IMG/VR virus record: IMGVR_UViG_3300028388_002543
Coordinates: 1 to 20,445 of that record
Source of the DNA: a virus
Length of the DNA stretch: 20,445 nucleotides
Strand: one strand, 5' to 3'
Both the position numbers and the translations under genes were made by a program. Below the pieces are notes generated by a model. It searched no databases and was not told where the DNA came from. It saw only the letters and a list, made by a program, of their open reading frames with translations. Shown here piece by piece: positions 5,528 to 14,679 of the stretch. Each line of letters opens with the position of its first letter. The stretch's first letter is position 1.

Positions 5528-6949
5528 ATGCCTGAGCTGAGGGTCAACAAGGCGATCGAGCGGGCGTTCTTCAGCACCAAGCCCATCGTGGTCCTGTTCG
5601 GCGGCCGGGGCTCAGGCAAGTCGCTGGGTGTCGGTGACATCATGACCTACCGCATGGACACTGAGGGCGCTGACGTGTACTGCCTGCGGGAATTTCAGGG
5701 CAGCATCGCCGACTCGGTTCACCGGGTGTTCGAGGGCAGCATCAAGGAGCGGCTGCAGCTCGATGACTTCGAGATCCAGAAGAACAGCGTGATCGCCCCG
5801 AACGGCGCCAAGACCACCTACGTCGGTGCAAACCGCAACCCAGACTCGATGCAGTCGGCTCAGGGCTACAAATACTCGTGGTTCGAGGAGGCGCACCGGA
5901 TCAGTCAGGACAGTATCGACAAGCTGCTGCCCACCATCCTGCGGAACCCCGGCGCCCAGTGCTGGTTCACCGCCAACCCTCAGTCATCTGCCGATCCGTT
6001 CAGCCAGCGGTTCATCGTTCCCTACCTCGACGAGATCCGCGCCAATGGCTACTACGAGGACGATGTCCACCTGATCATCAAGGTCAACTGGCGAGACAAC
6101 CCGTGGTGGAACGAGGAGCAGGAGCAGCTCAGGAAGTGGGACTACGAGAACATGAGCCGGTCGAAGTACGACTGGATCTGGGAGGGCGAGTTTAACGACG
6201 GGGTCGAGGATGCGCTGATCCAGCCCGAGTGGTTCGATGCCTGCGTCGATGCAGTCAAGAAACTTGGCATCACGCCGACCGGCGCCAGAGTCACCACCTA
6301 TGACCCAGCCGATACGGGCGATGATATGAATGCAGTGGCTACCCGCATCGGTATTCACTACGACTACATCGATGAGATCGACAAGCCCAACGGCAACCTC
6401 GCCTGTGATGAGGCGTGCATGATTGCTAGGCAGCGGAATACCGACCTGTTTGTCTGGGATGGGGATGGGATGGGTGCTCTCCTGCGAAAGCAGATCGCCC
6501 AAAATTTCGAGGGCGTCAAGATCGATACCCGAATGTACCGAGGCAGCGAGGGCGTTGACGAACCCAACACGCCATACGATGGCGTCTACTCCGAGGGGCA
6601 GAAAACCAACAGGGAGCTGTTCCAGAATAAGCGGGCGCAGTATTACGTCAAGCTAGCAAAGCGGATGGAGCAGACATACAAGGCGGTAGAGCACGGGCAG
6701 TATATCGACCCAGATCAGCTAATCAGCATCAGCTCGGACATCCCGTTGCTGATGAAGCTTCGGGCCGAGGTTTGTGGTATACCGCGCAAGAAATCCTTCT
6801 CAGGCAAAATCGCGCTGATGTCGAAGGAAGAAATGAAGAACAAGTATCACCGCAAGTCGCCCAACATGGCCGACTGCTTGGCAATGGGTGAGGAGCTGCC
6901 AGAGCTAATGACTGCAGCCCCAGAATTAGTCTTTGAGGGCTGGGCATGA
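5528..6949 (+). CDS. terL: Terminase large subunit
   Basis: A 473-aa ATPase-nuclease that pumps and cuts phage DNA at the portal. Walker A is GGRGSGKS (residues 25-32), Walker B is WFEEAH (118-123) and the coupling motif is FTAN (147-150). The C-terminal RNase H-like nuclease has acidic residues at D259 (TYDPAD), D311 (WDGDG) and D449 (SPNMAD). Length and motif order fit the P22/PBSX-type large terminases, which usually cut by a headful or related mechanism. The ATG at 5528 is one base after the small terminase stop; an open frame continues upstream to 5321 but only overlaps the small terminase gene out of frame. The stop overlaps the portal start (ATGA at 6946-6949). No intein or insertion is visible. 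Confidence 0.95.
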   Translation: MPELRVNKAIERAFFSTKPIVVLFGGRGSGKSLGVGDIMTYRMDTEGADVYCLREFQGSIADSVHRVFEGSIKERLQLDDFEIQKNSVIAPNGAKTTYVGANRNPDSMQSAQGYKYSWFEEAHRISQDSIDKLLPTILRNPGAQCWFTANPQSSADPFSQRFIVPYLDEIRANGYYEDDVHLIIKVNWRDNPWWNEEQEQLRKWDYENMSRSKYDWIWEGEFNDGVEDALIQPEWFDACVDAVKKLGITPTGARVTTYDPADTGDDMNAVATRIGIHYDYIDEIDKPNGNLACDEACMIARQRNTDLFVWDGDGMGALLRKQIAQNFEGVKIDTRMYRGSEGVDEPNTPYDGVYSEGQKTNRELFQNKRAQYYVKLAKRMEQTYKAVEHGQYIDPDQLISISSDIPLLMKLRAEVCGIPRKKSFSGKIALMSKEEMKNKYHRKSPNMADCLAMGEELPELMTAAPELVFEGWA

Positions 6950-9144
6950 TCTACGACTACGACGACCTGAATGCAGTGATCAAACTGCAGCGTGACAACG
7001 AGGGCTATGTGCGCGATATGCGGCGCCAGTCCAAGGAAGCCATTGATTTTGTCACCAAGCGCGATGGGCAGTGGGAGCCGTCCATCATCCAGAAGTTTAA
7101 AGGCCGACCGCGATACACCGATGACCGCGTCAACCCGATCATCAATCAGATGGTTGGCGAGCTGTTTCAGGCTGAGTTTACTGGGCGGGTACGACCAGCC
7201 GGTGGAGGCGCTACGCAGGAAACGGCAAAGGCGCTTGATGGTCTTGTTCGTACCATACGCAACAAGTCTCACTTCAACCGGATCATCAATCAGACCGGCA
7301 GGCGGGTAGCCATCTGCGGTATTGGCGGCTGGGAGATCGTCAAGGACTACGCCAGCCCCGACAGTTTTGATATGGATCTGATGATCCAGCCCATTGAGGA
7401 TTTCCATGAGCGAGTGCTGATTGATCCCAACTCGATGAGTCCGGTGGGCGAGGATGCCCAGTGGTCAATCGTGAAGCACTATATCGGCAAGAAGGCGTTT
7501 TCCGAGAAGTTTGGCGAGGACAAGAAGGTGTGCAGTCTGGGCCATGATGACTGGTCTGACTCGTACTACTACAAGCCCGACAACGTGACGGTCGGGCAGA
7601 TCTACTACCTGAAGCCGCGCAAAAAAGAGATGGTGCTGATGAGCAACGGCGCCGTCTATGAGGCGAACGATGATTTAGACAAGGTCATCGATGAGCTGGA
7701 AATGGCAGGCATCACCGAGGTATCACGGCGCGAGGCCGATGACTTTGTCTGCGTGCAGCGATGGTACTCAGCCGACGAGTGGCTGACCGACGAGGAGGTG
7801 CTTGATTTCAACTTCATCCCCGTCATCCCAGTCTACGGCAACTTCGAGGTGACCGAGGGCAAAGTCATCTACTTCGGTGCGGTCGAGCGGCTGATGGACA
7901 TTCAGCGCGTCCACAACTATGCGTTCACTCGCAACGTCGAGGAGGTGGCGCTCAGCCCACGATCTAAGTGGTTCATGACAGCCGAGCAGGTGGCAGGGTA
8001 CGAGGCGAAGATCCGAACCCTGAACACCAACATGGATCCGGTTCAGCTCTACAACCATGTGCCCGACCAGCCGCCACCCTTCTACAGCGACACCAGCTCT
8101 GCCAGTCAATCCCTGAGCAACCTGATCGCGCTGACCGATGATGGCATTGCCAAGGCGTCTGGGATCTTTGCGGCGAACATCGGGGACAACCCGAACGTGC
8201 AGTCAGGCGTGGCGATTCAGGAGCAGATTGATCGTGGCAACAATGGCACGGCATGGTTGTTTGAGTGTCTTGAGCAGTCTATCGAGTACACCTGCAAGCT
8301 CCTGCTACGCGCCATCCCCAAGACATATGACGGCACTCGCGAGGTGGTGCTGACGCAGGACGATGGCTCATTGCAGACCAAGATGATCAACGAGCCCGTG
8401 GTCGATCAGCAGACGCAGGAAACCATTTACCTGTACGACGTGACGCAGGGCCAGTACGACGTGACCATCGACATTGGCGCCGGGTACAAAAACAGGCAGC
8501 AGGAGGCGGTCGAGGCGTTCGAGCGGCTAGCCCAGATTGACCCGGCGCTCATGGAGCTGGGCAGGGATATCCACCTAAACAATCTCGAAGCGCCGAACAT
8601 GGATCTGGTTGCCCAGCGAGCACGCCAGATGATGCTGAATCAGGGCGCCATCCCAGAAGACCAGATGACCGAGGAGGAGCTGCAGATCATGCAGCAGCAG
8701 CAGGCCGCCCAGCAGGGGCAGCCCGCACCGCCTGATCCCCAGATGATCGCGCTGGAGATCGAGCAGATGAAGGCGCAGACGGCGATGATGGATCAGCAAA
8801 ATCGCCAGCAAGACTCCCAGCTACAGGCGCAGAAGCTGCAGGTTGATGCCCAGCTCAAGCAGATGGAGCTGGAAGAAAAGCGACGAATGACCGAGATCAA
8901 GATCGCTGAGCTGGAGGCCAAGCTATCTGCCGAGCAGCGCAAGTCGGAGATCGAGGGCATGACGCAGGCAGGCAAGCTTGATATCGAGCAGCAGAAGCTT
9001 GATCAGAGCATGATGAAGATGATGAACGAGATGGCGCTCAAGATGGCGGACATGGAAGCGAGGTACGCTCAGGATATGAACGCGGCAGTGGCGGACAATA
9101 AGAACGTCCTGCGCTTTGACCCAGCCACCGGCACGATCGGCTAA
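6946..9144 (+). CDS. Portal protein, P22 gp1-like
   Basis: A 732-aa portal subunit, close to the 725 residues of P22 gp1. Twelve copies would form the ring through which DNA enters and leaves the head. The N-terminal region (RRQSKEAIDFVTKRDGQW, then RPRYTDDRVNPIINQMVGE) is typical of P22-type portals, as is the DDGIAKASGIFAANIGDN segment in the core. The C-terminal part (about residues 585-710) is a long Gln/Met/Glu-rich coiled coil, like the extended helical barrel of P22. The ATG overlaps the large terminase stop, and its own stop overlaps the next ATG (TAATG at 9142-9146). In P22 the scaffold gene comes next; here two accessory genes intervene. The assignment is firm. Confidence 0.92.
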   Translation: MIYDYDDLNAVIKLQRDNEGYVRDMRRQSKEAIDFVTKRDGQWEPSIIQKFKGRPRYTDDRVNPIINQMVGELFQAEFTGRVRPAGGGATQETAKALDGLVRTIRNKSHFNRIINQTGRRVAICGIGGWEIVKDYASPDSFDMDLMIQPIEDFHERVLIDPNSMSPVGEDAQWSIVKHYIGKKAFSEKFGEDKKVCSLGHDDWSDSYYYKPDNVTVGQIYYLKPRKKEMVLMSNGAVYEANDDLDKVIDELEMAGITEVSRREADDFVCVQRWYSADEWLTDEEVLDFNFIPVIPVYGNFEVTEGKVIYFGAVERLMDIQRVHNYAFTRNVEEVALSPRSKWFMTAEQVAGYEAKIRTLNTNMDPVQLYNHVPDQPPPFYSDTSSASQSLSNLIALTDDGIAKASGIFAANIGDNPNVQSGVAIQEQIDRGNNGTAWLFECLEQSIEYTCKLLLRAIPKTYDGTREVVLTQDDGSLQTKMINEPVVDQQTQETIYLYDVTQGQYDVTIDIGAGYKNRQQEAVEAFERLAQIDPALMELGRDIHLNNLEAPNMDLVAQRARQMMLNQGAIPEDQMTEEELQIMQQQQAAQQGQPAPPDPQMIALEIEQMKAQTAMMDQQNRQQDSQLQAQKLQVDAQLKQMELEEKRRMTEIKIAELEAKLSAEQRKSEIEGMTQAGKLDIEQQKLDQSMMKMMNEMALKMADMEARYAQDMNAAVADNKNVLRFDPATGTIG

Positions 9145-10310
9145 TGCAGCGCGTACAGGTCGGCAACGATATCGTCGAGTTCCCCGACGAGACCAACGAG
9201 GGAGAGATGCTCGGGGCGCTGCGGCGTCAATTCATGAAGACCCCGTCGGTTGAGAATACGGTCGGACGCTTAGAGGCGCTTGGATCAGTCGCATCGGCCG
9301 CACTTGCCGAGCCGATCTCGGGCATTCTCTCGCTGCCAGCACTGGCAATTGAGGGCGGTGGGGTGGACGCTGCTGTGCGCGCTCAGGAGGCGATTCAGGA
9401 GGCGCTGACATACGTCCCAAGAACCGAGCAGGGCATGCGGGATCTGCAGGATGTGGCCAATCTGCTTGAGCCTGTGGCGCAGGCGTTCGAGATGACCAGC
9501 AAGGGTGCTGGCGACTACGTCATGGAGAAGACTGGGAACCCTGAGCTGGCAGCTGCGGCCTATACCGCACCAACTGCGTTCTTGGAGCTGCTGGGAGTCG
9601 GCGCTGCTCGCAAGGCGGCTAAGGCTGGCGGGTTTGAGACACAGGGAATACCCAGCCAGCGGTTTGGGCAGGCCGGAGAGACTGGCCGGGTCACGCGAGA
9701 AGATCCCACGATCGCCCGGCTAGAGGCCGAGGGCAAGGTTGCCCAGCGCAGCCCAGACAACGAGATCCCCGACGGGAAGTACATCGAGACGAATGTGCCG
9801 GAGCCGGTGCGTCGTCAGATTGTGGCCGACGAAAAGACTACTCCGCAGCAGGAGCTGGCAGGCGAGCGCAGGGAGTCAGACAAGGGCTACCAGCAGATCG
9901 ACGAGATTGTCGGTGAGATGCCTGTGATCGACCCAGAGGTGCTGAAGGGCCGCACGGTTAAGGTCACGCTGGCTGACCTGACTGGCGCCGGCAGAGCGTT
10001 CGAAGGGACCGAGGGCGTTGAGACCATTCCGATCGAGCTGCAGGGCGGACCAGAGTTCCCTCGGCTAAAGTCGTATTTAGAAAACAACATTGTTTGGGCG
10101 GCTCAGGATGAGGGCGCCATATCTCGATTGCAGGACGGCGATGTCGTTTTGGTCTCAGCGATGATGCCGGACAGTCATGCGTCGAATGCGACCGTGGCGA
10201 CCTCATTCCTATCGATGCTCGGCAAGTTCGCCGAGGAGGGCCGCATCAGCCCTGAAAACCTCGAAAAGTTCAAGCAGAAGGGCGCTGCCCCAGCCCGTGC
10301 CGATGACTGA
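9144..10310 (+). CDS. Polyvalent-protein-type accessory protein, upstream half
   Basis: A 388-aa protein. An acidic N-terminus (RVQVGNDIVEFPDETNEGEM) is followed by an Ala/Gly-rich helical region (about residues 45-160) with moderately hydrophobic stretches. After a charged linker, a conserved-looking C-terminal domain (about 265-380) includes KVTLADLTGAGRAFEG, LQGGPEFPRL and VSAMMPDSHASNATVATSFL. I have seen this type of domain in long phage polyvalent proteins that are packaged or injected, but I cannot name a reaction. The ATG overlaps the portal stop, and the 3' end overlaps the next gene by eight bases, so the two are coupled. The hydrophobic Ala/Gly region would fit a protein that enters or crosses membranes during DNA ejection, which is inference. 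It may form one functional unit with the next gene, split into two reading frames. Confidence 0.6.
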   Translation: MQRVQVGNDIVEFPDETNEGEMLGALRRQFMKTPSVENTVGRLEALGSVASAALAEPISGILSLPALAIEGGGVDAAVRAQEAIQEALTYVPRTEQGMRDLQDVANLLEPVAQAFEMTSKGAGDYVMEKTGNPELAAAAYTAPTAFLELLGVGAARKAAKAGGFETQGIPSQRFGQAGETGRVTREDPTIARLEAEGKVAQRSPDNEIPDGKYIETNVPEPVRRQIVADEKTTPQQELAGERRESDKGYQQIDEIVGEMPVIDPEVLKGRTVKVTLADLTGAGRAFEGTEGVETIPIELQGGPEFPRLKSYLENNIVWAAQDEGAISRLQDGDVVLVSAMMPDSHASNATVATSFLSMLGKFAEEGRISPENLEKFKQKGAAPARADD

Positions 10311-12423
10311 TTTCTTCCCTGAATTTATGGGGCGCAGGCGCAAGTCGGGCGGTCTGCCGCAGGGAGACTACCGTTCGCTGCAGGTCGGCCAGCCGCTTGA
10401 GATGGTGACCGATGATGTCATTGCAAACCTGCCAAGAGAGCGCGTGCCTGACGTTAAGAACCCGGCGCAGGCTCAGGCCGTCAATGCATTCCTTGAGGAT
10501 GACTGGCGTACCAGCAGCATGCTCAAAAAAGATGGCGGCGTGACACCGCTAGACTTCGTCAATGCGGTCAACAACAACAAGTACCGGCCAAGCCTAGACA
10601 TCACCAACGAGGCCGACGTCAAGGCTGATATCGACGCAGGCAACCTTGAGGTATACAAGCTTGGCGACCGGAATATCTTTTTCGGCATCAAGAACGGCGT
10701 CAACTACAACGACAACTACGGCATCGATCTCGAAGCTGCGGGCTTATCCCCCAACGAGAAGGTGGTCACCGGGCTGATCAACAACGAGCCGGGGATCTCT
10801 AGCGTTGCGGCGCCTGCGGCGATGATGAAAGCTATCGAAGAGGGCGTGACGGCGCTGGATGCGTTCGACGTTCGCACCGACAAATTCCCAAATGGTTTTC
10901 TACCTTCTATTTACAATGAGTATGGATTCGAGGAAGCTGCACGTCTGCCATTCAGCAAAGAAGAATACCTCAAGAACCACACCGAGGCTGATTTGAAGGA
11001 GCTGGAGCAGGCATGGCGATCAGATGGCTGGACGCCTGAGAATGGCTACCCTGATCTGGTGGTCATGAAGTGGACAGGAGATGACAATGCAAGAGCAACC
11101 TACAAGCAGCAGTGGCTCGATGACATTAGCAGAGGCGATGGCTCAGGCACTACTGCCGGAGCAACTCCAGAGTCTCTCGCAGACGCAGATTCAGTTGTTG
11201 AAGCGGCGCTTGGCACAGCTCAAAGACCGGGGGCAGATCAGCCCGCAGTCGGTGCTGGGGGAGTTCGAGATAGTAACCGAGCACCTGCTGCCAACAGATT
11301 CAGCAGAGCTGCAGCAGCCGTCAGCCAGTTCGACGCAAACCAGCGGCGCCGGTATGGAATCGATGACCGAACCCCAGAACAAATCGCCTATGAGCAGTCC
11401 ATCACCCCAGAGCACGCGGCTGCCACCCGAGCCCGAACGGAAGGCATCAGAAAGCGAGGAGGAGTGGGAGGAAAGGCGTGGGTTCTACCGGAACAGAGTG
11501 GGTCGCCTAAAGAATATGCGCGGGATGCGGCAGGCAACCTCAGAGGGCTCCCCCAAGTAGAGGGTTTCAATGCTCAGGCAAACGCCAGAATTGCCGATGT
11601 CGCTGCCAGATACATGGAGCGCGTCGGCCAGTCTAAATACACTCCAATTGCCACCTACGTCCCACCGAATCCCACCAAGGGCAAAGAGATTGCCCGGCTG
11701 TTCGATGAGATGGAGCACAACCCGCAAGATCCCGAGGTCAAGGCGGCTTATAACGCTCTGATCGAGGAGACGCTTGAGCAGTACGAAGAGATCCTCAAGA
11801 CCGGATTCAAGCCTGAGTTCATCGACTTCGAAACGATGGGTGACCCGTACCAAGAAAATCCCAGAATGGTCACCGAGGACATCGCCAACAACAACCATAT
11901 GTATGTCTTCAGCACCCGCGACGGGTTCGGATCGGATGCTGACTTCGATCCTGCCGACAACCCGCTGCTGCAGGAGACGGACTACATCATCAGCGGCCAG
12001 AAGGCGCTAGCCAACGACATTTTCCGCATCGTTCACGACTACTTCGGCCATGCCAAAGAAGGGCTTGGGTTCCGCGCTGGTGGCGAGGAGAACGCATGGC
12101 GATCGCACGCGGCAATGTATTCGCCATTGGCTCGACGGGCGCTCACGACCGAGACTCGTGGCCAGAACAGCTGGGTGAATTATGGGCCGAAAGGCGAGTC
12201 TAACCGCACAGCGTCGGCGGCCGACACGGTGTATGCTGACCAGAAAATTGGATTGTTGCCGACGTGGGTGTCAGAGTCGTTTGGCGACCCTGACGCGAAC
12301 AACAAGCGTATTCTGAAGAGCAAGTTCGATTACGAAATTGATTCGGGCAACAAGCCCAAAAAAGAGAAGGCCGGGAAAACCGGGAAAACCGGGAAAACCG
12401 GGAAAAACTACACAGTGGAGTAA
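10303..12423 (+). CDS. Polyvalent-protein-type accessory protein with HDYFGH domain
   Basis: A 706-aa protein in two folded parts. The N-terminal part (about residues 100-260) runs through VYKLGDRNIFFGIKNG, SSVAAPAAMMKAIEEGVTAL and GFLPSIYNEYGFEEAARLPF, and loosely resembles a GNAT-like acyltransferase fold. The C-terminal part (about 440-690) has the motif HDYFGH (578-583), then GFRAGGEENAWRSHAAMYS and TTETRGQNSWVNYGP; the His/Asp/Glu cluster suggests a metal or catalytic site, and this block recurs in large phage proteins. The Ala/Gly-rich linker between them (about 262-420) overlaps a nested gene (11087-11560) and has atypical codon use. The ATG at 10303 overlaps the previous stop; longer upstream frames only shadow that gene. 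The tail carries GKT repeats (12371-12406). It may be co-packaged and injected, or modify host targets; this is inference. Confidence 0.65.
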   Translation: MTDFFPEFMGRRRKSGGLPQGDYRSLQVGQPLEMVTDDVIANLPRERVPDVKNPAQAQAVNAFLEDDWRTSSMLKKDGGVTPLDFVNAVNNNKYRPSLDITNEADVKADIDAGNLEVYKLGDRNIFFGIKNGVNYNDNYGIDLEAAGLSPNEKVVTGLINNEPGISSVAAPAAMMKAIEEGVTALDAFDVRTDKFPNGFLPSIYNEYGFEEAARLPFSKEEYLKNHTEADLKELEQAWRSDGWTPENGYPDLVVMKWTGDDNARATYKQQWLDDISRGDGSGTTAGATPESLADADSVVEAALGTAQRPGADQPAVGAGGVRDSNRAPAANRFSRAAAAVSQFDANQRRRYGIDDRTPEQIAYEQSITPEHAAATRARTEGIRKRGGVGGKAWVLPEQSGSPKEYARDAAGNLRGLPQVEGFNAQANARIADVAARYMERVGQSKYTPIATYVPPNPTKGKEIARLFDEMEHNPQDPEVKAAYNALIEETLEQYEEILKTGFKPEFIDFETMGDPYQENPRMVTEDIANNNHMYVFSTRDGFGSDADFDPADNPLLQETDYIISGQKALANDIFRIVHDYFGHAKEGLGFRAGGEENAWRSHAAMYSPLARRALTTETRGQNSWVNYGPKGESNRTASAADTVYADQKIGLLPTWVSESFGDPDANNKRILKSKFDYEIDSGNKPKKEKAGKTGKTGKTGKNYTVE
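11087..11560 (+). CDS. Nested overlapping gene, 157-aa protein in the +1 frame
   Basis: A complete reading frame inside the gene at 10303-12423, shifted by one base. It starts at the ATG at 11087 with AGGAG six bases upstream (11076-11080), and ends at TAG 11558-11560. The first 77 codons have G or C at the third position in about 54 cases by hand count (70%), against about 30 of 76 (39%) for the containing frame over the same DNA; elsewhere the containing frame looks normal. The product has a helical N-terminal half (MTLAEAMAQALLPEQLQSLS, then QLLKRRLAQLKDRGQI), a Ser/Pro/Gln-rich middle and a charged SESEEEWEERRGFYRNRVGR tail. I do not recognise a function; the make-up suggests a small helical virion or scaffolding-associated protein. 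A frameshift product joined to the upstream domain is an alternative. Confidence 0.65.
   Translation: MQEQPTSSSGSMTLAEAMAQALLPEQLQSLSQTQIQLLKRRLAQLKDRGQISPQSVLGEFEIVTEHLLPTDSAELQQPSASSTQTSGAGMESMTEPQNKSPMSSPSPQSTRLPPEPERKASESEEEWEERRGFYRNRVGRLKNMRGMRQATSEGSPK
12371..12406 (+). repeat. Four perfect 9-bp tandem repeats (CCGGGAAAA)
   Basis: Four identical copies of CCGGGAAAA encode a run of Gly-Lys-Thr triplets in the basic tail of the upstream protein. Being a multiple of three, copy-number change would lengthen or shorten the tail without breaking the frame. Confidence 0.9.
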
Positions 12424-12561: not shown

Positions 12562-13389
12562 ATGGAACCTGAGCAACAGCTGCAAAACGACGAACACATC
12601 GCCGAGGAAGTTGGCGAGGTAGGAGTCGAAGACCAAGGCCAGCACCTTGGGGACGATTCAGCGCCGTCTAGTGAACCGCAACACGAAGAAAATAGCGCAG
12701 ATGCTGATGAACAAAAGCCGGTCAATCAGGAAGCGATTGACGCGGCAATTGCCAGACAGCATGCGAAGTACCGGGAAGAACAGCGCAAGCGCATGGCTCT
12801 TGAAGAGGAGCTTCAGCGGTTGCGTCAGGCTAGTCCAAGTTATGACGACCCTGAGCCTAAGATCGTTGAGGTCGACCCCTACGCAGATGATGTGCAGGAT
12901 CTGATCAAGCAGCGTGACGAGTCTCTCAGGGCTCATATGGCATGGCAGCAACGGCAGCGAGAGCGGCAGGCGCAGCAAAGTCAATATGAGCAGCAGCGTC
13001 AACTTGAGCAGCAACAGACGGCAGCTCAGCAGGCCGAGCAGTTTTTTGGCAAGGCGGCTGAGAGGAAAATTGATCAGGAGCAACTGAATCAGGCGGTGCA
13101 AACCGTCGGTCAGTACCAGCTAGGGCACGAGGTCGCATCCTATTTGATGGGGGACGACAAAGGGCCGGAGCTGGTGACAAGCCTGTCCAAGAACCCTGTA
13201 CTGCTGGCTGAGCTGTCAATGATGAGCCCAACCGAACGGATACTTCACATTGAGCGAAACGTGAGGACGAAGTTAAACCCGACTCCCCGCGCTTCGAGTA
13301 GTAAACCGCCTCCGACGCGGGTGAAGGGCCGAGCGGCAGATGCTAGCGATAGGTTCCCCCTCACCGGAGGTAAAGTTACCGTTGAATGA
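12562..13389 (+). CDS. Capsid scaffolding protein
   Basis: A 275-aa protein with the make-up of phage scaffolds. The N-terminus is strongly acidic (about residues 1-55), followed by a long Gln/Glu/Arg-rich coiled coil (about 56-165, including KYREEQRKRMALEEELQRLR), and the C-terminus is basic (about 235-270), the part that in P22 gp8 contacts the coat protein. Sequence similarity alone would not identify it, but its place directly upstream of a P22-type coat gene makes the role clear. It should drive procapsid assembly and then leave the head. AAGG lies just upstream of the ATG at 12562, and the promoter at 12481-12508 starts the transcript. The coat gene follows after 12 bases. Confidence 0.82.
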   Translation: MEPEQQLQNDEHIAEEVGEVGVEDQGQHLGDDSAPSSEPQHEENSADADEQKPVNQEAIDAAIARQHAKYREEQRKRMALEEELQRLRQASPSYDDPEPKIVEVDPYADDVQDLIKQRDESLRAHMAWQQRQRERQAQQSQYEQQRQLEQQQTAAQQAEQFFGKAAERKIDQEQLNQAVQTVGQYQLGHEVASYLMGDDKGPELVTSLSKNPVLLAELSMMSPTERILHIERNVRTKLNPTPRASSSKPPPTRVKGRAADASDRFPLTGGKVTVE

Positions 13390-13401: not shown

Positions 13402-14679
13402 ATGGCTAACAACTTTAGTAGCAATACCGTCGAGATGCTGGCTCGCACTTTCTTGGAAAAGTTCGAGTCCAGCCGTTGCGTCACCAAGGCGATCGACACT
13501 CAACTGATCCAAGGCGAATTCACACCGCGCTCTGGTGGTCAGGTATCCGTAAAACGTCCGCATGACTACAACGCCATCCGCACAGTCGGTGGTGATATCA
13601 GCGGCTCAACCAAGTCCGACATCATCTCAGGTAAGGCAACTGCGACGGTTCAGGACTACATCACCATCGCTACTGAGTGGTCAAACATTCAGGAAGCGCT
13701 CGAAGCAGACCAGATCGATCAGATCCTTGCGCCAATGGCGACTCGTGCTGTTACGACTCTGGAGACCAGCCTGTCTTCTTATATGCTCCGCAATGCAAAC
13801 CTGTCAGTCGGCACGCCCGGCACGGCAGTAACGAAGTGGAGCGATGTCGCAGCGGCTGGCGCCCTGATGGACTCAATCGGCGTTCCGATGGACAACGATG
13901 TGTTCTACGTCATGAACCCGTACACCACCACAAGCCTTGCTGACACTCAGTCAGGTCTGGCGTCTGGTGATAACGATCTGGTGAACACTGCATGGCGCCG
14001 GGCGCAGATCAGCCGCAACTTCGGCGGCATGGCTGCGTTGAGCTGCAACACCCTGCAGGCCGTTGCGGATGACGCAACACTGGCTGACCGGGCAGGCACG
14101 CTGTCTGCTAACCCGGTTGTGACCTACGTCGCGGCCAAGGACACCATGAAGCAGACACTGTCTGTCTCTGGGTTCTCGGCTAACGCCAACATCGTTGCTG
14201 GATCTGTTGTCGAGATCACTGGCCGTCATTACCTGAACCAGTCAACCCGCACCACCTTCACGGATGGCGCAGGCAATCTGGTCAAGTACCGTGCGGTTGT
14301 GACCGAGACCGTCACGCTCTCAGGCACTGGCACGGGCGACATCGTCGTTGCAGGTCCAGCGATCTTCGAGGCTACTGGTCAGTACAACACTGTTGACTCA
14401 GCGCCAGTCTCTGGCGATGTGATCACGGTTCTCGGCGCAGCTGGTGGCACTTACCAGCCCAACCTGTTCTTCCATCGACAGGCTTACGGCATGGCCACAG
14501 TCAAGCTGCCCAAGCTGTACGACACCGACACCGTTGTCACTACTGAGGACGGCTTCTCGATTCGAGTCAGCAAATACTCAGACGGTGACGCAAACCAGCA
14601 GAAAATCCGTTTCGACCTTCTGCCTGCGTTTGTTACCTTCAACCCGTTCTTCGCGGGTCTCGGGTACGGCATCGCCTAA
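13402..14679 (+). CDS. Major capsid (coat) protein, P22 gp5-like
   Basis: A 425-aa coat protein, close to the 430 residues of P22 gp5 and recognisably of that HK97-fold family. The N-terminus (MANNFSSNTVEMLARTFLEK), the segment GGQVSVKRPHDY and the middle NDLVNTAWRRAQISRNFGGM are typical. Residues about 225-345 are Thr/Val/Gly-rich beta sequence and match the inserted I-domain position of P22. The ending QKIRFDLLPAFVTFNPFFAG is also typical. GAGGG lies upstream of the ATG at 13402, and codon use is strongly biased toward common codons, as expected for an abundant protein. A terminator follows at 14688-14707. Confidence 0.95.
   Translation: MANNFSSNTVEMLARTFLEKFESSRCVTKAIDTQLIQGEFTPRSGGQVSVKRPHDYNAIRTVGGDISGSTKSDIISGKATATVQDYITIATEWSNIQEALEADQIDQILAPMATRAVTTLETSLSSYMLRNANLSVGTPGTAVTKWSDVAAAGALMDSIGVPMDNDVFYVMNPYTTTSLADTQSGLASGDNDLVNTAWRRAQISRNFGGMAALSCNTLQAVADDATLADRAGTLSANPVVTYVAAKDTMKQTLSVSGFSANANIVAGSVVEITGRHYLNQSTRTTFTDGAGNLVKYRAVVTETVTLSGTGTGDIVVAGPAIFEATGQYNTVDSAPVSGDVITVLGAAGGTYQPNLFFHRQAYGMATVKLPKLYDTDTVVTTEDGFSIRVSKYSDGDANQQKIRFDLLPAFVTFNPFFAGLGYGIA

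Follow-up and report, generated by a model that had tools for sequence, protein, structure and literature searches.

A candidate gene for a small protein overprinted in the linker of a phage polyvalent protein gene

Introduction

The window considered here, that is, the whole stretch of DNA that was analysed, is a virus record of 20,445 bases with a P22-type head module (large terminase, portal, a 388-aa gene, a gene for a large multi-domain protein, scaffold, coat). Wholly inside the gene for the multi-domain protein, the containing gene, lies a shifted frame of 157 codons with AGGAG six bases before its ATG, and the coordinates given for it in the preliminary description were confirmed. Is this frame a gene in its own right, or a consequence of the codon composition of the gene around it? 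Comparison with related loci makes it highly probable that the interval holds an overprinted, selected gene, the small protein being encoded within a phage polyvalent protein ORF, in frame +1.

The features of the region are as follows.

6946..9144, plus strand: P22-type portal gene (context; PF16510, E = 7.8e-130)
10303..12423, plus strand: containing gene, phage polyvalent-type protein of 706 aa (ATG at 10303, stop to 12423)
10303..11105, plus strand: N-terminal domain of the containing protein, without a family match
11076..11080, plus strand: Shine-Dalgarno-like AGGAG, 6-base spacer to the ATG at 11087
11087..11560, plus strand: candidate nested gene, 157 codons from the ATG supported by a Shine-Dalgarno box (alternative starts 11081 and 11363, the latter without such a box)
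11087..11380, plus strand: N-terminal extension in the nested frame, with codon usage like that of coding DNA, only relative the near-identical contig L002
11106..11535, plus strand: Ala/Gly/Arg-rich linker of the containing protein, the nested gene read out of frame
11381..11548, plus strand: conserved core of the nested protein (LPPEPERKASESEEEWEERRGFYRNRVGRLKNM), HMM match E = 1.9e-15, homologous small +1-frame proteins in 56 other loci
11536..12290, plus strand: C-terminal domain of the containing protein (HDxFGH ... GEENAW ... ETRGQNSW), common to many phage polyvalent proteins
12562..13389, plus strand: head scaffolding gene (context; family phrog_8865), motif in common with the nested protein
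13402..14679, plus strand: P22-type coat gene (context; PF11651, E = 6.6e-57)

Results

The containing gene

The start of the containing gene overlaps the 3' end of the neighbouring gene. A second contig, L002, represents the same virus. It is near-identical to the window from about 10354 on, and upstream of approximately 10290 the two cannot be aligned base for base. This point, near the start of the containing gene, is a mosaic boundary or an indel between the window and L002. Assembly error was rejected as the source of the nested ORF, since L002 has the same sequence across it. The N-terminal domain has essentially no relatives beyond L002, the only other match being a weak one (27%) in L015, and no syntenic relatives were found with the portal as query. 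The C-terminal end of the containing protein contains near-perfect 9-base repeats (12369-12410) encoding (GKT)n. Elsewhere in the window, the minus strand carries an ORF of 126 aa (1649-2029), in which SLGTTYHN units are repeated and a signal peptide may be present.

The C-terminal domain and its homologs share the invariant motifs HDxxGH, GE and RGQNS. Its fold is predicted confidently (pLDDT 91); no significant solved match to this fold was found in PDB, and no Pfam model matches the domain. Among the structure matches are phage proteins whose names refer to a large polyvalent protein associated domain. The resemblance of HDxxGH to aromatic amino acid hydroxylases was considered and dropped, as tryptophan hydroxylase appeared only at E = 2.1.

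Codon usage in the two frames

The nested ORF extends from stop to stop over 11069-11560, with TAG at 11558-11560, in frame +1 relative to the containing ORF. Besides 11087, it has an in-frame ATG at 11081. In 11087-11379, the nested frame has a third-position G+C of 0.70 and the containing frame one of 0.45, matching an earlier count by hand; on both flanks of this segment the containing frame has 0.68-0.70. Between about 11,110 and 11,560 high third-position G+C shifts from the containing to the nested frame. The codon log-odds of the nested frame (+0.066 in 11087-11362, +0.114 in 11363-11557) exceed those of all 92-codon +1-frame stretches of the other genes (maximum -0.027). The corresponding values for the containing frame are -0.042 and -0.063, the 5th percentile of normal in-frame values being +0.214. 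Such intermediate codon usage in both frames is expected for dual coding.

Wherever the containing frame has an NGA codon, this is a nested codon starting with GA (Glu or Asp), read out of frame. Thus the Gly/Arg-rich linker, whose many AGA, CGA and GGA codons had been noticed in the preliminary description, results from Glu and Asp codons read one base early.

The length of the nested ORF was dropped as evidence. In simulations with the containing protein fixed and the codons redrawn, a +1 run of equal or greater length arises in 67% of trials and the same stretch is open in 32%, so that the length is not beyond chance (P = 0.32-0.67). The case for the nested gene rests on its relatives and on codon usage, not on ORF length.

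A family of small +1-frame proteins

The last ~55 codons of the nested ORF encode a member of a family of small proteins, about 43-70 aa long, with the motif PKRExFxxxEEYEEALxxFxxR. The first relatives came from a tblastn search in which the nested protein was compared with loci retrieved for the C-terminal domain; the significant matches covered the C-terminal part of the nested protein, and each was one frame off the C-terminal domain. A profile search identified the family in 40 loci, and two more scans raised this to 58 of the 146 distinct phage and prophage loci, L002 (the same virus as the window) being one of the 58. In all of them the gene is in the +1 frame within the containing ORF and upstream of the same C-terminal domain, mostly 120-170 nt before it.

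The profile matches (E from 4e-12 to 6e-23) lie mostly within giant ORFs of 500-3700 aa. Small ORFs account for the matches in L008, L009, L012, L021 and the prophages L087 and L088, each enclosed by a containing ORF of about 500 to 3200 aa. The profile scores are bimodal, and the containing ORF is open in most loci without a match. In L077, the containing frame is interrupted by a TAG (5802-5804) where the C-terminal domain begins, with the nested gene intact; this is either a real split or a sequencing error.

The family also occurs in prophages of Polynucleobacter and Paraburkholderia, carriers including Polynucleobacter sp. UK-Kesae-W10 and Paraburkholderia saeva LMG 31841, and in the phage records MW202675 and OQ594354, both without annotation for such a gene. 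Each carrier record and genome searched has one clear copy. Among 369 and 299 related bacterial genomes there were no free-standing copies; what was found were the prophage copies, and motifs lying in frame in one scaffold and one giant protein. A plasmid search yielded none. The nested protein has no significant matches in Pfam, NCBIfam or PADLOC, and in PDB only 20 residues of an anti-CRISPR chain match it (E = 0.024). The open literature that was searched contains no description of the gene. As gene finders generally skip genes lying wholly within another gene on the same strand, such families are easily missed. Neither an annotation, nor a family model, nor a paper was found for this one, which is very probably a genuine protein overlooked by them.

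The nested protein of the window is a divergent member of the family, with at most 47% identity to a relative. It is more similar to its relatives in the nested than in the containing frame in 38 of 56 comparisons, the best being with L008 (identity 0.47 and 0.24, respectively). The start with Shine-Dalgarno support, 11087, gives it a longer N-terminus, and no relatives of this part (98 codons) were found except in L002, the same virus. Possibly the true gene begins at 11363, at the start homologous to those of the relatives, encoding 65 aa, with 11087-11362 not translated together with it. The size of most relatives and the N-terminal part without a homolog would fit this shorter form. However, the sole Shine-Dalgarno box precedes 11087, with none near 11363, and codon use in 11087-11362 is above every +1-frame null stretch, that of the containing frame being depressed there too; we consider the shorter form doubtful.

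Selection

Since L002 is identical to the window over the nested gene, selection was measured in 11 independent close pairs of relatives. In every identity class, differences accumulate at the third position of nested codons, which is the first position of the containing frame. Counted at positions 1, 2 and 3 of the containing frame in the 11 pairs, there are 78, 30 and 30 differences in the nested core, 125, 91 and 479 in the C-terminal domain, and 88, 53 and 141 upstream. We further classified substitutions by their effect in both frames, using the adjacent C-terminal domain as a control with the same estimator. At the overlap, dNN/dNS of the nested frame is 0.21 (0.14-0.33) and dNN/dSN of the containing frame is 0.74 (0.50-1.12), whereas in the C-terminal domain the nested-frame dNN/dNS is 1.08 and the containing-frame dNN/dSN is 0.11. 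In the relatives, purifying selection on the nested frame exceeds what the containing frame imposes.

In 57 of 57 loci no stop interrupts the containing frame across the nested gene, 7.3 open loci being expected if it were unselected (log10 P = -72), and the same holds for all 39 representatives (5.6 expected), according to simulations in which the nested protein was fixed and codons were drawn following each phage's own usage. Thus the containing frame is still needed. Taken together, the sequences indicate true dual coding, with amino-acid constraint in the nested frame and a tolerant linker in the containing frame. The nested frame would be kept for its amino-acid sequence, and the containing frame mainly as an open linker joining the N-terminal part to the C-terminal domain.

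The preliminary description had proposed comparing the two frames in aligned relatives, and had suspected a dual-coded linker between two domains. The comparison finds the nested frame constrained at the overlap and the relation reversed in the adjacent domain; the open frame in every locus, the depressed codon use and the relaxed constraint bear out the linker. In contrast, its alternative of a three-gene array fused by loss of stops, if recent, disagrees with a containing frame that is open across the nested gene in all 57 loci.

If the containing frame alone were translated, the nested ORF would be a by-product of codon composition, and the unexceptional ORF length in the window would be accounted for. 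However, the selection test is reversed relative to the neighbouring control, the Shine-Dalgarno box is fixed, and family-level homology is confined to one frame, which makes this explanation scarcely credible.

Initiation signals

A Shine-Dalgarno box with a start codon within 90 nt was found in 46 of 57 loci, compared to a mean of 5.8 and a maximum of 14 in the matched null; such a box is present for nearly all family copies. Translation of the small protein would start in the +1 frame from a ribosome-binding site of its own, in the linker directly 5' of the conserved C-terminal domain.

The preliminary description had also allowed for programmed frameshifting, by which the product would be fused to a part of the polyvalent protein instead of being a free small protein. 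Indeed, there is an overlap of frames, and in many cases the end of the small ORF is close to where the C-terminal domain begins. However, inspection of the nested 3' ends revealed no slippery heptamer common to the loci, the small ORFs carry their own Shine-Dalgarno box and start, and in L008 a stop directly precedes the nested ATG. We rejected frameshifting as very improbable. Re-initiation at the nested stop was rejected as well, a containing-frame ATG being near this stop in only 8 of 57 loci. At the level of sequence, the family is characterized by independent initiation signals, dual coding and amino-acid constraint.

Distribution and evolution

On a tree of 144 C-terminal domains, the presence of the nested gene requires at least 17 changes (shuffled mean 45), of which only 5 are forced by well-supported branches. 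Many relatives keep the C-terminal domain without a detectable nested gene, including the most distant rows of the tree, and thus the nested gene is not indispensable for this domain. In several pairs the DNA upstream of the nested start is unrelated, while the nested gene and the C-terminal domain are still similar. As similarity ends near the nested start, the two move together. The earlier suggestion that the nested frame is older or more constrained can therefore be retained as regards constraint (dNN/dNS below the control) but not as regards age, given the many relatives, the most distant included, that have the domain only. Stops in the nested frame of relatives had been named as evidence against the gene; some relatives do lack it, and it is conserved wherever present.

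Two other +1-frame motifs were observed just 5' of the C-terminal domain. An acidic motif WDPEEEGRxExEAYQKHRQRQRG occurs in L051, L052, L055, L067, L068, L070, L074, L135, L172-L174, L178 and the L047 clade. The motif PETEEDGIRAEALRRLK, over a Gly-rich containing frame, occurs in L091, L093, L096-L099, L003 and L007, which provide few close pairs. The codon-position test had a mixed outcome for the WDPEEEGR-type motif and in the type II/III clades. These acidic ORFs, found in lineages scored as lacking the gene, may be distant versions of it. If divergent ORFs of this kind do belong to the family, the nested gene would be near universal for the C-terminal domain.

Discussion

Possible role of the nested protein

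The small protein is presumably produced during infection. Its most likely role would be to assist the polyvalent protein, which the same message encodes, as a small helical accessory factor. Besides a tail of low confidence, the AlphaFold2 model of the 65-aa form has a single helix spanning residues 32-59 (pLDDT 89-95 within the motif). As this helix resembles the middle part of P22-type scaffolding proteins, a role in head assembly can be suggested: the nested protein could guide the polyvalent protein or its C-terminal domain into the head, or keep it inactive during assembly. We regard this as a tentative suggestion.

The resemblance was seen in two comparisons, which are partly independent. 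In hhalign against ten P22-type scaffolds the probability is 85% and E = 6e-6, the latter being for that one pair. Among 38,880 PHROGs, the head scaffolding family phrog_8865 is the sole match at E <= 0.01 (best E = 0.0033; 3 of 51 members match). The genome scan with the nested family also matched a scaffold protein. The similarity to phrog_8865 and phrog_648 is restricted to a motif of ~36 columns, and full-length homology was not observed; a short scaffold-like motif could possibly arise by convergence on a helix cap. A P22-type portal was not seen in many carriers, which weakens a scaffold-specific role.

In the main rival reading, the nested protein would act as an intragenic antidote to, or inhibitor of, the C-terminal domain. 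The latter would be a harmful enzyme that the phage injects along with its DNA, and the nested protein would protect the producing cell, as RpnS blocks RpnL, a precedent for genes within genes (PMC10327210). The nested gene always adjoins the C-terminal domain, travels with it, and is present in one clear copy per carrier record or genome searched, which speaks for an antidote. On the other hand, many relatives have the domain with no detectable nested gene, the domain has no known toxic activity and its predicted fold has no significant solved match, and Rpn proteins share one frame, unlike the nested gene. An antidote is unlikely, and we prefer a nested protein that serves the polyvalent protein as an accessory factor, perhaps during head loading.

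A bolder and rather doubtful extension of the accessory-factor reading is a widespread two-product cassette, in which the small protein, a scaffold mimic overprinted in a polyvalent linker, would be the partner of the domain after it, a single mobile DNA segment thereby giving both a packaged domain and a helper packaging or restraining it. If it is true that the small protein partners the following domain, it offers a direct handle on how phages package or control injected multi-domain proteins.

Comparison with known systems

The nested gene has the properties of an overprinted gene, as judged from its sequence and those of its relatives: a complete ORF with start, stop and ribosome-binding site in another frame, selection on the nested frame, and a maintained containing frame. 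The combination of frame-specific substitution classes with a neighbouring control, open-frame simulation and a Shine-Dalgarno null provides a route to such genes in metagenomic phage data.

In the genes-within-genes toxin-antitoxin system RpnL/RpnS, RpnS is in the RpnL frame and corresponds to the C-terminus of RpnL (PMC10327210). Here too, internal initiation would give two products from one DNA stretch. However, the nested gene is in a different frame in every locus, and the two sequences are unrelated, without the same-frame identity of the Rpn pair. The containing protein resembles the polyvalent proteins that Iyer et al. (2017, PMC5512222) treat in phages and conjugative elements: it is a large phage protein made up of several shuffled domains. 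When the text of that paper was searched by terms for nested or overlapping genes, no such description was retrieved.

The likeness to P22-type scaffolds (phrog_8865) covers about 36 aligned columns around PxPxxFxDxxEYxxALxDWK. In contrast to these scaffolds, the nested protein is mostly about 43-70 aa long and lacks the rest of the scaffold, and the window has a separate scaffold gene.

A parallel in arrangement is with Rz1 inside Rz of phage lambda and E inside D of phiX174, where a small phage gene lies within another on the same strand, in a shifted frame and with its own start, as the nested gene does. The difference is that here the host ORF encodes a large multi-domain protein, and the nested gene, placed in a linker between domains, moves together with the following one.
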